Shown: piece after piece, positions 8,969-59,195 of the stretch
Position numbering within the stretch: position 1 is the stretch's first letter
Layout: each line of letters opens with the position of its first letter
Origin: Halorussus rarus
GTDB lineage: Archaea; Halobacteriota; Halobacteria; Halobacteriales; Haladaptataceae
NCBI RefSeq assembly: GCF_003369835.1
Contig: NZ_QPMJ01000001.1
Coordinates: 682,001 to 746,000 of the forward strand
DNA length: 64,000 nt
Reading direction: 5' to 3'
Notes under the pieces: model-generated
The model's database searches: none
What the model was told of the DNA's origin: nothing
Seen by the model: the letters and a program-made list of their open reading frames with translations, nothing else
Made by a program: the position numbers and the translations under genes

Positions 8969-10462
8969 CTACCCGCCGTAGTCCTCCAGGACGGCGTCGG
9001 CGGTGTGCTGGCCGCTGATGAGACACATCGGGACCCCGATGCCGGGCGTCGTGTACGACCCCGTGAAGTAGAGGCCCGGCACCTCGGTCGAGCGCCGGTT
9101 GGGCCGGAGCGGGCCGGTCTGGCGCAGGGTGTGGGCGAGGCCGAGCGCGGTGCCCCGGACGGAGTTGTACCGGTCGGCGAACTCCGAGACGGAGAACCGC
9201 TCCTCGACGACGATGCGGTCCCGGAGGTCGACCCCGGTGTTCTCGGCGACGTCGTCGAGCACGAAGTCGCGGTAGCGCTCGCGGGTCTCGGGGTCGTCGT
9301 CGAGGCCGGGCGCGACGGGGACCAGCGCGAACAGGTTGCTGTGGCCCTCGGGCGCGACCGTCTCGTCGGTCTCGCTGGGTACGCAGAGGTAGTAGGCCGG
9401 GTCGTCGGGCCACCCCGGTTCCTCGAAGATGCCGTCGAAGTGGTCGTTCCAGTCGGTCGGCAGGACCAGGGTGTGATGTTCGAGGGGGTCGACGTCGCCC
9501 TCGACGCCGAGGTAGAGCAGGAACGCGGAGGGCGCGTAGGTCCGCGACTCCCAGTAGTCGGCGTCGTACTGGCGACTCTGGGGCGGAAGGAGCTCCTGCT
9601 CGGTGTGGGCGTAGTCGGCGTCGCTGACCACGAGGTCCGCGCGGAGATAGTCGGCCCGGTCCTCGGTATCGATCTCTACTCGGAAGTTCCCCGCCGACCC
9701 CAGGATGGCCTCGACCGCGCTGTCGGTCCGGTACTCGACGCCCAGTTCCTCGCCCAGTTCGGCGATGCCGTCGACGACGCCGCCCATCCCGCCCTCGGGG
9801 TAGTGGACGCCGAGGTTGAAGTCGACGTGGCTCATCAGGTTGTAGAGCGCCGGCGTGTTCTTGGGCGACCCGCCGAGGAACACCAGGGTGTACTGCATGA
9901 TCTGCTGGAGCTTCGGGTGGTCGAAGTAGTCCTCGACGTGGTCCTGCATCGATCCGAGGAACGTCAGTCCGCGGGCGTGGCGGGCGACGTCCCAGTCGAC
10001 GTAGTCGCGGAACCGGGGTCGGTCGGTGTAGACGAAGTGCTCCATCCCGATCTCGTAGGTCTCCTCGGCCTCCGCGAGGTAGGCGTCGAGCGCGGCGGCC
10101 GCACCGGGTTCGTACTCCTCGAAGGCGGCCTTGGTCGCCTCCCGGTCGGCGGTGACCGTCACCGCGTCGCCGTCCTTGAAGAAGATCTTGTAGTGGGGGT
10201 CGAGGTGCTCCAGGCCGTAGTACTCCTCGGGGCGCCGACCGAAGTGGCCGAAGAAGCGCTCGAACACGTCGGGCATCAGGTACCACGACGGCCCCATGTC
10301 GAACCGGAACCCGTCGCGCTCGAGCACGCTCGCCCGGCCACCGAGCTGCTCGTTCTTCTCCACGACCGTCACGTCGGCCCCGGCGTCGGCGAGGTAGCAG
10401 GCGGTCGCGAGCCCGCCGAATCCGCTCCCGACGACGACCACCGACCGGTCGGCGAGTGTCAT
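8969..10462 (-). CDS. crtD: Carotenoid 3,4-desaturase (CrtD, phytoene desaturase family)
   Basis: This is an FAD-dependent CrtI/CrtD-family desaturase of 497 residues. The dinucleotide-binding motif VGSGFGGLAT (11-20), the ribose-binding Glu35 and GGRAS (41-45) are at the N-terminus; the C-terminal FAD segment is GLYFTGSYTTPGIGVP. Being first in crtD-lyeJ-cruF, it most likely carries out the 3',4'-desaturation of bacterioruberin synthesis rather than phytoene desaturation, but the family cannot be split by motif alone. The ATG at 10462 is preferred; upstream in-frame codons lie beyond the expected promoter. Confidence 0.9.
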   Translation of the reverse strand: MTLADRSVVVVGSGFGGLATACYLADAGADVTVVEKNEQLGGRASVLERDGFRFDMGPSWYLMPDVFERFFGHFGRRPEEYYGLEHLDPHYKIFFKDGDAVTVTADREATKAAFEEYEPGAAAALDAYLAEAEETYEIGMEHFVYTDRPRFRDYVDWDVARHARGLTFLGSMQDHVEDYFDHPKLQQIMQYTLVFLGGSPKNTPALYNLMSHVDFNLGVHYPEGGMGGVVDGIAELGEELGVEYRTDSAVEAILGSAGNFRVEIDTEDRADYLRADLVVSDADYAHTEQELLPPQSRQYDADYWESRTYAPSAFLLYLGVEGDVDPLEHHTLVLPTDWNDHFDGIFEEPGWPDDPAYYLCVPSETDETVAPEGHSNLFALVPVAPGLDDDPETRERYRDFVLDDVAENTGVDLRDRIVVEERFSVSEFADRYNSVRGTALGLAHTLRQTGPLRPNRRSTEVPGLYFTGSYTTPGIGVPMCLISGQHTADAVLEDYGG

Positions 10463-11784: not shown

Positions 11785-13125
11785 TCACTCTGACTCCGCG
11801 GCGGCGGAGTCGGCCGTCGCGGCCACCGCCTCGCGGACCGCCGAGAGCAGTTCGTCCGGGCCGACGACCCGGCCGCGCTCGCAGAGCTCTCGGTAGAGCG
11901 CGGCCGCCTCGCTGCCGGCGTAGTTGCGCTCCGCGAAGGGCCGCTCCTCGACAACGACCACCGAGTCGGCCGCGCGGGCGGCCCGGAGATTGGCGAGGTT
12001 GCCCGCGCCGACCTCCACGTCCGCCAGGACGGTCGCGTCGGCCGCCCGGACGCGGGCCTCGACCTCGCGGCGGGCCGCCTCGCCGACCGGCGCGAAGGGC
12101 TCCTCGGTCACGACGTCGAGGCCGAGCGTCCGGGCGGTTTCGAGGTCGGAGTCGCCCTCGTTCAGCGCGCCGACCGACACCTCGTAGCTCGCCGCCGACA
12201 GCACGTACAGCAGCCGGGAGACCGTCCCGCCCCCGCCGACGACGTGGACCCGCCCCTCGCGCTCGGCGGGGCGCTCGGGGAGCGCGGTGACGTACGTCGA
12301 CCCGGTCACGGGGTGGCTGGAGACGACGGCTCGGGTGTCGAAGGCGGCCTCCAGGTGCTCCTCCGAGAGGACGGTCTCGGGGTCGCCGCTGGCACGAATC
12401 CCGCCGCCAGCGAGCAGCCGGAGTTCGTCGCAGTAGTGGGAGGCGAGGTTGAGGTCGTGGATGGCCGCCACCACGGTCTTACCGTCCTCGTCGACCAGCT
12501 CCCGGACGAGTTCGAGCGTCCGGACCTGGTGGTTGATGTCGAGGCTGGCGGTGGGCTCGTCGAGCAGGAGGACGGGAGTGTCCTGGGCGAGCGCGCGGGC
12601 GAGCAGGACGCGCTGGCGCTCGCCGCCCGACACCGCCGTGATCGAGCGGTCGGCGAGGTGATCCACCTCAGTGCGCTGCATCGCGGCCGCCACGCGTTCG
12701 CTGTCGTCGATGGCGGCGTTCGCCTCGGCCGGGGAGGAGGGGTCGGCACCGGCGGCCTCGGCGCTGCCGGACCGACCACCGTCGCCGAATCCGATGCCGC
12801 CGCCGAACCGCGACCGGTAGGGATGGCGGCCCATCGCCACGACCTCCTCGACCGGGAAGTCGAACGACAGCGAGGTGTCCTGCGGGACGACCGCGACCCG
12901 GCGGCTCGCGGCCTTCGAGGCGAGCCCGGAGATGGGGTCGCCGTCGATTCGGACTTCTCCGCGGTCGGGGCCGAGGGCGCCGTGAACGGTCCGGAGCAGC
13001 GTGGTCTTGCCCGCGCCGTTCGGACCGACCAGGCCGACGAACTGCCCGCCCCCAATGGCGGTGGTGACGCCGTCGAGGATGCGGTTCCCGCCGAGTTCGA
13101 CGGCGACGTCGTCTATCTCTATCAT
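11785..13125 (-). CDS. btuD: Corrinoid ABC transporter ATPase with extra C-terminal domain
   Basis: This is the energy-coupling ATPase of the vitamin B12 importer. Residues 1-265 form the ATPase: Walker A GPNGAGKTT (34-42), signature SGGERQR (166-172), Walker B LLLLDEP (186-191 region) and the switch His in AAIHD. Between the Q-loop helix and the signature is a Gly/Ser/Ala-rich insert (about 108-143). A further 160-residue domain follows, with VVGGGGTVSRLL and ADVEVGAGNLANLRAA, which looks Rossmann-like and is also found in other haloarchaeal BtuD proteins. Total length is 446, against about 250 for bacterial BtuD. The ATG at 13125 begins MIEIDDVAVEL, as the family does. Confidence 0.88.
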   Translation of the reverse strand: MIEIDDVAVELGGNRILDGVTTAIGGGQFVGLVGPNGAGKTTLLRTVHGALGPDRGEVRIDGDPISGLASKAASRRVAVVPQDTSLSFDFPVEEVVAMGRHPYRSRFGGGIGFGDGGRSGSAEAAGADPSSPAEANAAIDDSERVAAAMQRTEVDHLADRSITAVSGGERQRVLLARALAQDTPVLLLDEPTASLDINHQVRTLELVRELVDEDGKTVVAAIHDLNLASHYCDELRLLAGGGIRASGDPETVLSEEHLEAAFDTRAVVSSHPVTGSTYVTALPERPAEREGRVHVVGGGGTVSRLLYVLSAASYEVSVGALNEGDSDLETARTLGLDVVTEEPFAPVGEAARREVEARVRAADATVLADVEVGAGNLANLRAARAADSVVVVEERPFAERNYAGSEAAALYRELCERGRVVGPDELLSAVREAVAATADSAAAESE

Positions 13126-13195: not shown

Positions 13196-13394
13196 GAAAG
13201 CCCCCGCCCGGTCGCCACCGGAAGACGTTCCTGCTCGCCTTCGGCTGCGCGGGCCTGCGACTTCCGAGGTCTCGTTTGCTTCGCTCACGAGACGGCCGCT
13301 GAGCGACACATCCTCCGCTCACCTCGTTCGCTCCGGATAGTGGTCGCTCAGACGACCAACGTGAACGCGACCGGGCGGCCCCTTTCATCCACCC
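13196..13394. repeat. Structured intergenic repeat, block 2 copy, between btuD and btuC
   Basis: Ends are GAAAG-CCCCC-GCCCGGTCGC (13196-13215) and GCGACCGGGC-GGCCC-CTTTC (13367-13386), followed by ATCCACCC (13387-13394). Outer GAAAG/CTTTC and inner 10-bp arms pair, leaving a 5-by-5 C-rich internal loop. Inside are a hairpin GTCTCGT/ACGAGAC, a 9-bp stem CTGAGCGAC (13299-13307) with GTCGCTCAG (13343-13351), and ATCC/GGAT followed by AGTGG. The same plan with different stem bases occurs at 58177-58300. It fills most of the 340-bp gap between btuC and btuD, which are otherwise normally close. Translation of its minus strand gives the phrase GWMKGAARSR, probably not a real protein. Confidence 0.85.
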
Positions 13395-13465: not shown

Positions 13466-14587
13466 TCACAGCGCGTGCACCTCCCGGGTCCGGAGCAGGT
13501 AGAGGAAGAACGGGGCGCCGAGGAACGCGGTCACGATGCCGACCGGGAGCTCCGCCGGGCCCGACCGCGCCACGGTGTCGGTCGCGACCAGGAACGACGC
13601 GCCGGCGAGCGCGGAGGTCGGGAGCAGGATGCGGTGGTCCGGGCCGACCAGCAGGCGCATCACGTGCGGGACCACCAGGCCCACGAAGCCGATGACGCCC
13701 GACACCGCGACCGCGGCGCCGGTCATCACGCTGGCGACCGCCAGCAGGAGGCGCTTGGTGCGCTCGACCTCGACGCCGAGCGCGTGGGCGTCCTCCTCGC
13801 CGAGCAGCAGCACGTTCAGGTCCCTGGCGTACGCCAGGAGGACGCCGAAGCCCAGGAGCGCGACCGGAAGCACGAGGGTCACGTCCTCCCACGAGGCGAG
13901 GTGGAGGTGGCCCATCAGCCAGAACACCGCCTGCTCCATGCTCTCGCCGGTCTGGAGCAGCAGGAACGACACCACCGCCCCGAGGAACGTCTGGACCGCC
14001 ACGCCCGCCAGCAGCAGGGTGGCGACCGGCGTCCGGCCGTCCTCGGTCGCGAGCAGGTAGACCCCGAACGCCGCCGCGACGGCGCCGAGGAACGCCGCGG
14101 TCGGCAGCGAGAACGGGACCGACAGCGGGAGCGCGATGGTCGCCACCGCGCCCACCGCCGCGCCCGAGGAGACCCCGATGATGGAGGGGTCGGCCATCGG
14201 GTTCCGGAAGAACCCCTGCATCACCACGCCGGCCGTCGCCAGCGCCAGACCCACCACCGCCCCGAGCGCGATCCGGGGCAGGCGGATGGTCATCACGATG
14301 GTCCTGGCGGTGTCGGGCGCCGCGAAGTCGAAGAGCGGCGCGAACGCGACCGACGGCGTCGGCGCCGTCAGCGCCAGTCCAGCTATTCTGAGCGTCCGGT
14401 CGACGAGGCCGACGCCGACCGGAACCGCCAGCGCGTTCAGCAGCACCTTCGCGACCGCGACGTAGTCGAGCGCCACCGGCCCGACCGCGGCGCTGGCGAC
14501 CACGACGGCGGCCAGCACGGCCGCGAGTCCGCCCGACCAGCCGACGATCCGCGCGCGTTGCCACATCGTCTGAAATCCGACTTGCAT
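13466..14587 (-). CDS. btuC: Corrinoid ABC transporter permease
   Basis: This FecCD/BtuC-family permease of 373 residues has about ten hydrophobic helices. Family landmarks are [37 protein letters not shown] and [20 protein letters not shown] (the ATPase-coupling region). The start is uncertain: the ATG at 14587 gives MQVGFQT, while an internal ATG at 14566 ([10 protein letters not shown]) is better spaced from the AT-rich element at 14592-14605. It is divergent from btuF by only 40 bp and is separated from btuD by a repeat. Confidence 0.92.
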
Positions 14588-56438: not shown

Positions 56439-58058
56439 ATGCACAAACCGCTGCTCGTGACCGACTTCCTCGACAGAGCCCGGACCCACTACGGCGACCA
56501 GGAGGCGGTCGTCGCCACGACCGGCGAGCGCTACACCTACGACGAGTTCGGCGACCGGGTCGACCGGCTCGCGGCCGCGCTGGCCGACCGGGGCATCGAG
56601 AAGGGCGACCGGGTCGCGGTGCTCGACCCCAACACCCACTACCAACTCGAAGCCGCGTACGCCGCCTTCCAGCTCGGCGCGGTCCACACCCCACTGAACT
56701 ACCGGCTCACGCCCGACGACTACGAGTACATCCTGAACGACGCCGGCGTGGACGCGGTCGTCGCCGACTACGAGTACGCCGAGAAGATCGAGGCCGTCCG
56801 CGACGAGGTGCCCACCGAGGTCTTCGTCAGCAACGACGCCGAGGCGACCGAGGGCGACTGGGAGGAGTTCGACGCGGTGGTCGCCGACGCCGACCCCGAC
56901 GGGTTCACCCGGCCCGAGATGTCCGAGGACGAGGTCGTCACCATCAACTACACCTCCGGCACAACGGGCGACCCGAAGGGCGTGATGCGGACCCACCGGA
57001 CCGAGACGCTCCACGCCTACGTGCTCTCGGTCCACCAGGAGATCTACGACGACGACGTCTACCTCTGGACCCTGCCGATGTTCCACGTCAACGGCTGGGG
57101 TCACATCTACGCCGTCACCGGGATGGGCGCCACGCACGTCTGCACGCGCGGCGTCGACGCGGCCGACATCGTCGAGACGGTGCGGTCCGAGGACGTCTCG
57201 TTCCTCTGCGGCGCGCCGACCGTGCTCAACATGCTCATCGACTACTACGAGGAGAACGGCGAGCCCGAGATGACCGGCGACAGCGACGTCCGGGTGACCA
57301 CCGCGGGGTCGGCGCCGCCCGAGGCGACCATCCGCGCGGTCGAGGACGAGTTCGGCTGGTACCTCAAGCACCTCTACGGCCTGACCGAGACCGGGCCGCT
57401 CATCACCATGTCGGACGCCCGCCGGCTGCTCGACGCCGACGACGACGGCCGGTTCGCGCTCAAGAAGCGCCAGGGGATGGGCGTGCTCGGCACCGAGGTC
57501 GCGGTCGTCGACGACGACGGCGCGGACGTCCCCCGCGACGACTCGACCATCGGCGAGATCGTGGTCCGGGGCAACCAGGTGATGGAGGGCTACTGGGAGA
57601 AGCCCGAGGCGACCGAGGAGGCGTTCAACGAGAAGCGCGAGGGCTGGTTCCACACCGGCGACCTCGCGAGCGTCGACGAGCACGGCATGGTAGCCATCAA
57701 GGACCGGAAGAAGGACATCATCGTCTCGGGCGGCGAGAACATCTCTAGCATCGAGATCGAGGACACGCTGTTCGACCACGACGACGTGAGCGACGTCGCG
57801 GTCATCCCGGCCCCGAGCGAGCGGTGGGGCGAGGAGCCCAAGGCGTTCGTCGTCCCGGCGTCGGGCGACCCCGAGGACCCGGGCGTGACCGAACAGGAGA
57901 TCCGGGAGTTCACGAAGGAGCACATGGCCTCCTACAAGGCGGTCAAGCGCGTGGAGTTCGTCGCGGAACTGCCCTCGACCGCCACCGGGAAGATTCAGAA
58001 GTACGAGCTCCGCGAGCGGGAGTGGGACGACGAGGACCGAATGGTCGGCGAGGGGTAG
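56439..58058 (+). CDS. Acyl-CoA ligase (AMP-forming, fatty-acid type)
   Basis: The 539-residue ANL-family enzyme has A3 loop YTSGTTGDPKGVMRTH (about 170-185), A5 YGLTETGPL, A7 GWFHTGDLASVDEHG, A8 DRKKDIIVSGGENISSIEIE and A10 STATGKIQKYELRE. It most resembles medium/long-chain fatty-acid or short branched acyl-CoA synthetases; chain length cannot be read from motifs. A role in fatty-acid or propionate-type oxidation alongside the mutase is plausible. The next 459 bp hold no gene, only repeats. Confidence 0.88.
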   Translation: MHKPLLVTDFLDRARTHYGDQEAVVATTGERYTYDEFGDRVDRLAAALADRGIEKGDRVAVLDPNTHYQLEAAYAAFQLGAVHTPLNYRLTPDDYEYILNDAGVDAVVADYEYAEKIEAVRDEVPTEVFVSNDAEATEGDWEEFDAVVADADPDGFTRPEMSEDEVVTINYTSGTTGDPKGVMRTHRTETLHAYVLSVHQEIYDDDVYLWTLPMFHVNGWGHIYAVTGMGATHVCTRGVDAADIVETVRSEDVSFLCGAPTVLNMLIDYYEENGEPEMTGDSDVRVTTAGSAPPEATIRAVEDEFGWYLKHLYGLTETGPLITMSDARRLLDADDDGRFALKKRQGMGVLGTEVAVVDDDGADVPRDDSTIGEIVVRGNQVMEGYWEKPEATEEAFNEKREGWFHTGDLASVDEHGMVAIKDRKKDIIVSGGENISSIEIEDTLFDHDDVSDVAVIPAPSERWGEEPKAFVVPASGDPEDPGVTEQEIREFTKEHMASYKAVKRVEFVAELPSTATGKIQKYELREREWDDEDRMVGEG

Positions 58059-58176: not shown

Positions 58177-58408
58177 GAAAGCCCCCGCCCGCTCGCGGTC
58201 GCTCTGCGAGATATTCGCGGCTCTCTGCACCGCCAGCCGCGAATAGTGGCCCGCAGAGGCGACTGAATTGCACGCGAGCGGGCAGCCCCTTTCATCCACC
58301 CCACCGCAGACCGCACGGCACCACGTCCCTCCCCAGCCGATTCGCTCACTTCGTTCGCTCATCCCTCGCGCAATGAGGGCGCGAGATGAACTCGCGCCAG
58401 CGCGCGCC
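58177..58408 (-). repeat. Full intergenic repeat with block 1 and block 2
   Basis: Read on the minus strand, block 1 (58408-58311) has GGCGCGCGCTGGCGCGA, a hairpin GGCGCGAG/CTCGCGCC, TGCGCGAGGGATGAG, GGCTGGGGAGG and GTGCCGTGCGG, matching 19815-19929. Block 2 (58300-58177) then follows with GGTGGATGAAAGGGGC, matching 13196-13394. Block 2 stems on the plus strand: GCCCGCTCGCG (58187-58197) with CGCGAGCGGGC (58273-58283), GTCGCTCTGCG (58198-58208) with CGCAGAGGCGAC (58252-58263), ATTCGCGGCT (58213-58222) with AGCCGCGAAT (58235-58244). The rest of the 459-bp gap shows no gene. Confidence 0.85.
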
Positions 58409-58517
58409 GTAGCTAGTCCTGTTTTACCCAAGAACGATTAGTAATTCTAAACTCCACGTCCACCTTCCTCCGAGAGCCCAAGACCCAAGACGCCTCGAAT
58501 CGAGCTACCTGATACCA

Positions 58518-59195
58518 ATGCCCGAAGAAGAGGCGCTCTGCTTCGACATGTACGGGACGCTCTGCGACACGAGCAGTGTCACCGAGACGCTCGGCGAGGA
58601 GCTCGACCTGACCGACAAGGTGGTGGCGAACGTCGACGAGCTGTGGCGCCAGAAGCAGCTCCAGTACGCCACCGAGTCGGCGCTGATGGACGACTACCGG
58701 ACGTTCTGGGAGGTGACCGAACGGGCGCTCGAGTACGCGCTGGAGTTCCACGGTCTCCCGGTCGACCGGGCGGCCCAGGAGCGAATCATCGGCGCCTACG
58801 AGCACCTCGACCCGTACCTCGACGCCGTCGGTGCGCTGGAGCGACTCGGCGAGGCCGGCGCGACCGTCGTCGTGCTCTCGAACGGTAACCCCGAGATGCT
58901 GGAGACGCTCGCGGAGAACGCGGGACTGACGACCCACCTCGACGACGTCGTCAGCGCTCACGAGGTCGGGACGTTCAAGCCCGACCCCGCGGTGTACGAG
59001 AACGCCGCCGACCGGCTCGACCGGTCGCTGGGCGACTGCCGACTCGTCTCCTCGAACGCGTGGGACGTCGCCGGTGCATCGCAGGCCGGCATGTCGACCG
59101 CGTGGGTGAACCGCGCCCGCGAACCCGCCGAACGCATCGGCGGCGAGGCCGACCTGACAGTCGAGTCGCTCGCCGACCTCGCCGAGTCGCTGTAG
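58518..59195 (+). CDS. HAD-superfamily hydrolase, haloacid dehalogenase type II-like
   Basis: The 225-residue protein starts with the nucleophile motif DMYGTLCD (Asp10, in place of the usual DxDGTL), has LSNGNPEML (motif II Ser), FKPDPAVYENA (motif III Lys) and SSNAWDVAGASQAGM (motif IV-like). The DxYGT and SNA-x-DV patterns are typical of (S)-2-haloacid dehalogenases. In archaea such proteins may equally be phosphatases, so the dehalogenase activity is unproven. Confidence 0.85.
   Translation: MPEEEALCFDMYGTLCDTSSVTETLGEELDLTDKVVANVDELWRQKQLQYATESALMDDYRTFWEVTERALEYALEFHGLPVDRAAQERIIGAYEHLDPYLDAVGALERLGEAGATVVVLSNGNPEMLETLAENAGLTTHLDDVVSAHEVGTFKPDPAVYENAADRLDRSLGDCRLVSSNAWDVAGASQAGMSTAWVNRAREPAERIGGEADLTVESLADLAESL

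Follow-up and report, generated by a model that had tools for sequence, protein, structure and literature searches.

The hairpins of REP and REPIN sequences carry at their foot a characteristic 5' tetranucleotide of the GTAG type. Served by RAYT transposases, these non-autonomous elements are dispersed extragenic palindromes that occur as inverted pairs and in tandem clusters and are predicted to form hairpins in single-stranded DNA (PMC3116915). In Haloquadratum walsbyi, the non-coding elements SMR-A and SMR-B are about 80 to 110 bp long, have inverted ends and reach up to 54 copies, their mobiliser being unknown and no target duplication having been reported; copies of one type are commonly more than 95% identical and target PATEs or IS605 elements (PMC3119063). 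The same paper describes 'SwitchRepeats', which lie at the same position in opposite orientation, and haloarchaeal PATEs and IS605-type elements with terminal palindromes and core deletions that leave fused ends (PMC3119063).

The window, which is the whole stretch of 64,000 nucleotides that was analysed, contains two copies of an element that we take, on balance, to be non-coding, dispersed, mobile palindromic DNA similar to REP/REPIN sequences. Like these, it is present as many dispersed extragenic palindromes, with inverted pairs and tandem clusters. Unlike these, it is a branched unit of about 110 to 200 bp with a CCC/CCC loop, it ends in GAAAG/CTTTC-AGTCC in nearly all copies and has no GTAG-type tetranucleotide, and no Y1/RAYT gene (PF01797) was found in five copy-rich genomes (that of the window, G147, G400, G401 and G162), despite their approximately 49 to 108 copies. 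With the SMR elements it shares a non-coding nature, inverted ends and a high copy number, at a size at or above their upper end; in contrast to SMR as described, its copies average about 73% identity and lie in ordinary intergenic DNA. Terminal palindromes and core-deleted forms with fused ends are features in common with PATEs and IS605-type elements, whereas around ten Y1 transposase genes the covariance model found no copy within 1.5 kb. The Y1 transposase was rejected as a partner, being absent from these copy-rich genomes and, around the ten genes, adjoining no copy. MITEs are marked by target-site duplication and transposon-shared ends; our comparisons of closely related genomes show deletions or replacement and no clean empty site, and the element may or may not belong with them. 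No earlier description of the element was found in the literature searched, its motif letters included, and if our reading is true, REP/REPIN would have in it a large counterpart among the archaea, one that shows DNA-level covariation throughout a class and has no known mobiliser.

Both copies proposed in the initial annotation were found where it had placed them, with GAAAG starting at 13196 and 58177 and CTTTCATCCACC finishing at 13393 and 58300. Copy 1 is flanked by genes for a BtuD-type ATPase (11785-13125, minus strand) and a FecCD/BtuC-type permease (13466-14518, minus strand), and copy 2 by an acyl-CoA synthetase gene that ends at 58058 and a HAD-family gene that starts at 58518 (both plus strand), all four names being our reading of the translations. 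The parts of the two copies are as follows.

13196-13393, plus strand: copy 1, long subtype, about 198 bp
13196-13203, plus strand: left end of copy 1, GAAAG (partner CTTTC) and CCC, the left strand of the fixed CCC/CCC internal loop
13206-13215, plus strand: 5' arm of the outer stem P1 of copy 1, GCCCGGTCGC
13216-13298, plus strand: additional module of the long subtype in copy 1, with hairpins of its own, shared by few copies in the same genome
13299-13307, plus strand: 5' arm of P2 of copy 1, CTGAGCGAC
13310-13338, plus strand: P3 hairpin of copy 1, ATCC...GGAT
13343-13351, plus strand: 3' arm of P2 of copy 1, GTCGCTCAG
13367-13376, plus strand: 3' arm of P1 of copy 1, GCGACCGGGC
13379-13393, plus strand: right end of copy 1, CCC loop strand, CTTTC and unpaired tail ATCCACC
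58177-58300, plus strand: copy 2, standard subtype, 124 bp
58187-58197, plus strand: 5' arm of P1 of copy 2, GCCCGCTCGCG
58198-58208, plus strand: 5' arm of P2 of copy 2, GTCGCTCTGCG
58213-58244, plus strand: P3 hairpin of copy 2, ATTCGCGGCT...AGCCGCGAAT
58252-58263, plus strand: 3' arm of P2 of copy 2, CGCAGAGGCGAC, with a bulged G typical of the family
58273-58283, plus strand: 3' arm of P1 of copy 2, CGCGAGCGGGC
58286-58300, plus strand: right end of copy 2, CCC loop strand, CTTTC and tail ATCCACC
58301-58415, plus strand: right arm of copy 2, a second structured module ...CCTCCCCAGCCGATTCGCTCAC...ATCCCTCGCGC...GCGCGCGCC

The outer stems (GCCCGGTCGC/GCGACCGGGC in copy 1, GCCCGCTCGCG/CGCGAGCGGGC in copy 2) and the second and third stems of both copies are as first described, and so is the C-rich nature of the internal loop; though first given as 5x5, this loop is better seen as a CCC/CCC mismatch of 3x3 that two flanking CC:GG pairs close, these reading CC:AG in copy 2. 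Both copies fold far better than their shuffled counterparts, being equalled by 0 of 200 shuffles; z is -5.2 for copy 1, and for copy 2 it is -4.7 and -5.0, one value per strand. The additional module of about 80 nt in copy 1 is also found at the own-genome loci L200, L201, L203, L205, L207 and L208, and the module to the right of copy 2 lies at the same side of many other copies.

A covariance model, which the initial annotation had proposed to make from its two copies, was built from 18 copies and searched against this genome and other Halobacteria, revealing a large dispersed family. The Halorussus genome itself holds about 45 to 50 distinct copies once the reverse-strand echoes of the same palindromes, which the raw list also includes, are set aside; its 4.37 Mb contain 13 exact copies of the right-end 16-mer alone. 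Congeners carry 0 (G024), 1 (G402), 8, 10, 12, 36 and up to at least 107 to 125 copies, counts that are limited by the number of candidates scored, and copies are present in 27 of 28 family genomes, ranging from 1 to at least 125. Class-wide, with 12 candidates scored per genome, matches at E<=1e-4 were obtained in 109 of 292 Halobacteria genomes, which represent 50 of 77 genera. The weakest of these matches may be due to chance, and by our count the best matches (E<=1e-10) come from some two dozen genera. In copies from other genera the left end is GAAAGCCC or close to it, the CCC/CCC loop and an inner ATAT/ATAG are preserved, and the right ends read CCCTTTC or CCCTTCC followed by AGTCC or a near variant. 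Among low-copy genomes of other genera no common neighbour was seen save a Haloarcula plasmid gene, so that a conserved chromosomal locus across genera was rejected. The element matches no known Rfam family, as gathering and relaxed thresholds returned only one tRNA and chance matches. Viral contigs and phage records gave no match with one loose-pattern exception; this is the viral contig L325 (IMGVR_UViG_3300023284_001647), which has a loose form of the right-end pattern at 9559-9577.

Throughout the family the ends are fixed as GAAAGCCC...CCCTTTCAGTCC while the interiors vary, with an element length of about 109 to 200 bp. An exact GAAAGCCC stands at the left end of 60 of the 63 Halorussus copies and of 15 of the 20 class-wide copies, the remaining class-wide left ends reading G[AG]AA[GT]CCC. 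Minimal copies (L002, L004 and L007) are barely more than fused ends, and at one site in a pair of approximately 95%-identical genomes (L096/L344) one member holds a full copy and the other only its ends. The same ends also enclose a second interior type (L254, L255, L260, L035, L326, L327, L332 and L333), a hairpin with a strand like ...GGTGCTTACGTCGCC... inside that sometimes forms head-to-head or tail-to-tail pairs with hairpins of the first type.

All 83 copies that were checked with a codon-usage gene caller are intergenic, and both orientations occur. Their gene contexts comprise 34 of the form <E<, 16 >E>, 17 <E> and 16 >E<, with a weak orientation bias in the tandem ones (34 versus 16). 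Over the element, copy 1 matches another copy, C2:485771-485971, at 96% identity, and the homology ends at TTCGAAAG and CCACC. In G400, three cores that lie within 7 kb of one another are identical (91 to 99% over longer alignments), and G176 holds a pair of copies that are 99.2% identical. The family does not consist of recent insertions of one fixed sequence, as mean identity within the genome of the window is about 73%. Copies at sites orthologous between this genome and G176 resemble each other no more closely than cross-genome pairs drawn at random (similarity percentiles 0.18-0.88), and some are inverted, which implies that a shared position does not mean an inherited sequence. In the approximately 95%-identical genomes G399 and G407 some sites keep the copy, some hold only its ends or a remnant, and elsewhere the whole intergenic stretch differs; such close-pair comparisons showed intergenic stretches replaced or deleted, and yielded no clean empty site from which a target could be defined. 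Between approximately 95%-identical genomes, at L303 compared with L296 and at L306 compared with L292, unrelated sequence takes the place of the intergenic stretch around the element between flanking genes that are alike. At the btuC-btuD junction, nearly all relatives whose junction was recovered (L151-L166) carry a copy in the same orientation, and the junction is without a copy in G024 and G402.

Selection on structure, as the initial annotation had asserted, is borne out by compensatory changes and by covariation within the fold. Among 18 copies, compensatory changes affect 18 of 38 pairs, where shuffling gives 10.5 on average, and the share of cells that pair is 94%, compared with 32 to 46% in slid controls. 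A permutation test that takes the tree into account, purpose-written in the manner of R-scape and applied to 63 copies, found 10 significant covarying column pairs, 9 of them inside the structure; the lack of covariation that would have spoken against the initial annotation was not observed. Watson-Crick pairs fill 2285 of 2391 stem cells (95.6%) in these copies. A helix kept as RNA is expected to show an excess of G:U on its strand, and over all stem cells G:T indeed exceeds A:C (34 versus 17, p 0.024); however, 25 of the 34 G:T cells sit in a single pair, columns 33-222; covariation ties its 3' column to the adjoining linker column (222-225), and the pair looks like two linker variants. Without this pair the counts are 9 G:T and 17 A:C, small numbers that follow a post hoc exclusion. 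That G:T is in no excess over A:C outside the linker-dependent pair would, on these small counts, point to folded DNA rather than RNA, and the fold is probably kept because single-stranded DNA is handled in folded form. Covariation by itself does not establish RNA.

Plasmid copies add a further context to this fold. The blastn matches of the element fall mostly on Halorussus plasmids, and its core is found on plasmids of Haloarcula, Haladaptatus, Halorussus, Salinibaculum and Halorientalis. At the Haloarcula plasmid loci inspected, pNG500 and pHH126 among them, and at three Haladaptatus plasmid loci, the hairpin precedes an RPA/OB-fold gene on the same strand by about 0.4 to 1.9 kb; the encoded proteins are mutually homologous, with weak Pfam support and NCBIfam matches to replication factor A that reach 6e-19. 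The gene at the equivalent place in Salinibaculum (L317) is not homologous to these proteins, and no RPA-like match came from the genes closest to the hairpin at L321, L323 and L324. The initial claim that the element is not linked to one gene type holds for the chromosomal copies; the spread across the class, the arrays in the arms and these plasmid copies lay beyond what the initial annotation could see. The association was first noticed and then checked on a small set, which does not make it a calibrated test: 11 loci picked by the protein alone gave three significant upstream same-strand hits (L326, L327 and L331) and a marginal one (L332), and by inspection 4 of the 11 (L326, L327, L332 and L333, the last being pNRC100) carry a complete hairpin whose ends are the same and whose interior differs. 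The protein family occurs on at least 178 plasmid records; the hairpin is missing or a remnant at L328, L329, L330 (right half only, by inspection), L334, L335 and L336. In L326-L334, a long near-perfect palindrome of the type GCGCGCTCGCTTCGCGCC...GGCGCAAGCGAGCGCGC is conserved about 250 bp or less upstream of most of these plasmid RPA-like genes. A hairpin upstream of a single-strand-binding gene is also known from the leading region of F-like plasmids, where Frpo/ssi hairpins accompany ssb; the plasmid copies resemble this arrangement but differ in the archaeal RPA-type protein, in the dispersal of the element on chromosomes and in a transfer role that is putative.

Of the readings first offered, the mobile palindromic element is favoured and the non-coding RNA disfavoured, and the former draws on copy numbers that span 0 to at least 125 among congeners, on unrelated sites that hold near-identical copies, on the presence of both orientations and on the lack of a G:U excess over A:C outside the linker-dependent pair. 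In this element, the fixed ends GAAAG-CCC ... CCC-CTTTC-AGTCC/ATCC-RCC flank a long, branched stem in which pairing persists despite sequence drift. The folded single strand would be what is recognised, with the stem, the C-rich mismatch loop and the unpaired 3' tail as the signal, and copying or moving might be carried out in trans by a nuclease or recombinase acting on single-stranded DNA, as RAYT transposases do for REP/REPIN. We infer recognition as single-stranded DNA from the fold, from the setting of the plasmid copies and from G:U pairs not being tolerated on balance. Against the mobile element stand the Y1 search of the five copy-rich genomes, which found no partner enzyme, the close-pair comparisons without a clean empty site, and the weak orientation bias in tandem contexts; the presence of the btuC-btuD copy in one orientation in nearly all relatives also fits a retained function. 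A tentative alternative, which we consider possible yet rather doubtful, is that the hairpin primarily serves the (mostly MPF_T) plasmids as an element for conjugative transfer, for single-strand initiation or of the leading region, and that chromosomal copies escaped and amplified. The same-strand position upstream of the RPA/OB-fold gene suggests a single-stranded-DNA role, and the protein-chosen loci, including the pNRC100 hairpin, speak for it; at several inspected loci of the protein family the hairpin is absent or reduced to a remnant, a hot spot for insertion would give a similar picture, no relaxase or nick site was identified, and inspected chromosomal copies have no RPA-like neighbour. 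The two explanations are compatible, and the plasmid role would supply the mechanism of the mobile palindrome. We would speculate, with considerable doubt, that the hairpin is a class-wide haloarchaeal plasmid signal in single-stranded DNA (a transfer origin or single-strand initiation site) that works with the RPA-like protein, became chromosome-borne and was amplified in a REPIN-like manner under selection on DNA shape. To our knowledge the transfer origins of haloarchaeal MPF_T plasmids are undefined, and the plasmid hairpin is a concrete candidate for one; plasmid copies also hint where the recognising protein may be found.

The remaining explanations fare less well than the mobile palindrome. 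Stems might covary without selection if their arms template each other during replication, by quasipalindrome correction or template switching, and thereby become complementary mechanically; the nearly uniform Watson-Crick pairing and the conversion of one right end (L081) into the reverse complement of its left end are what this would predict, but template correction would erase fixed mismatches, and the persistence of the CCC/CCC loop and the bulged G in nearly all copies and across genera makes it unlikely, although arm templating may contribute alongside selection. A structured non-coding RNA or 5'-leader element, for which strong covariation with fixed internal loops and a bulge and the one-orientation btuC-btuD copy of nearly all relatives would argue, is quite unlikely in view of the pair counts outside the linker-dependent pair, small as they are, the occurrence in both orientations and every gene arrangement, the congeners with 0 or 1 copies, the turnover at orthologous sites and the negative Rfam result. 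Very unlikely, in our view, is a transcription terminator or a chromosome-organising (BIME-like) protein-binding site: the copies are palindromic, only intergenic, and form inverted pairs and tandem arrays, but no T-run follows the hairpin on its 3' side, divergent and convergent gene gaps are used about equally (17 versus 16) and some congeners have no copy at all.

The right end of L081, which is L194 in the genome of the window (C4:31330-31449), is what arm-templated synthesis would give. Several G176 loci also carry repeats beside the element. To its left at L217, L220, L226, L230, L239 and L244 stand tandem arrays of a 54/57-bp unit made of the element's first 20 nt (its left end) and a further 34/37 nt; units number at most six and are near-identical inside one locus and different between loci. 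A CRISPR-like nature of these arrays was ruled out, since the 'spacers' recur within one locus. To the right of many G176 copies lies either the second structured module or palindromic units of about 26 to 28 bp, the latter arranged in tandem at L226, L230, L243 and L220 and reading approximately CCGGTGGAnTGTGTCACCGG.
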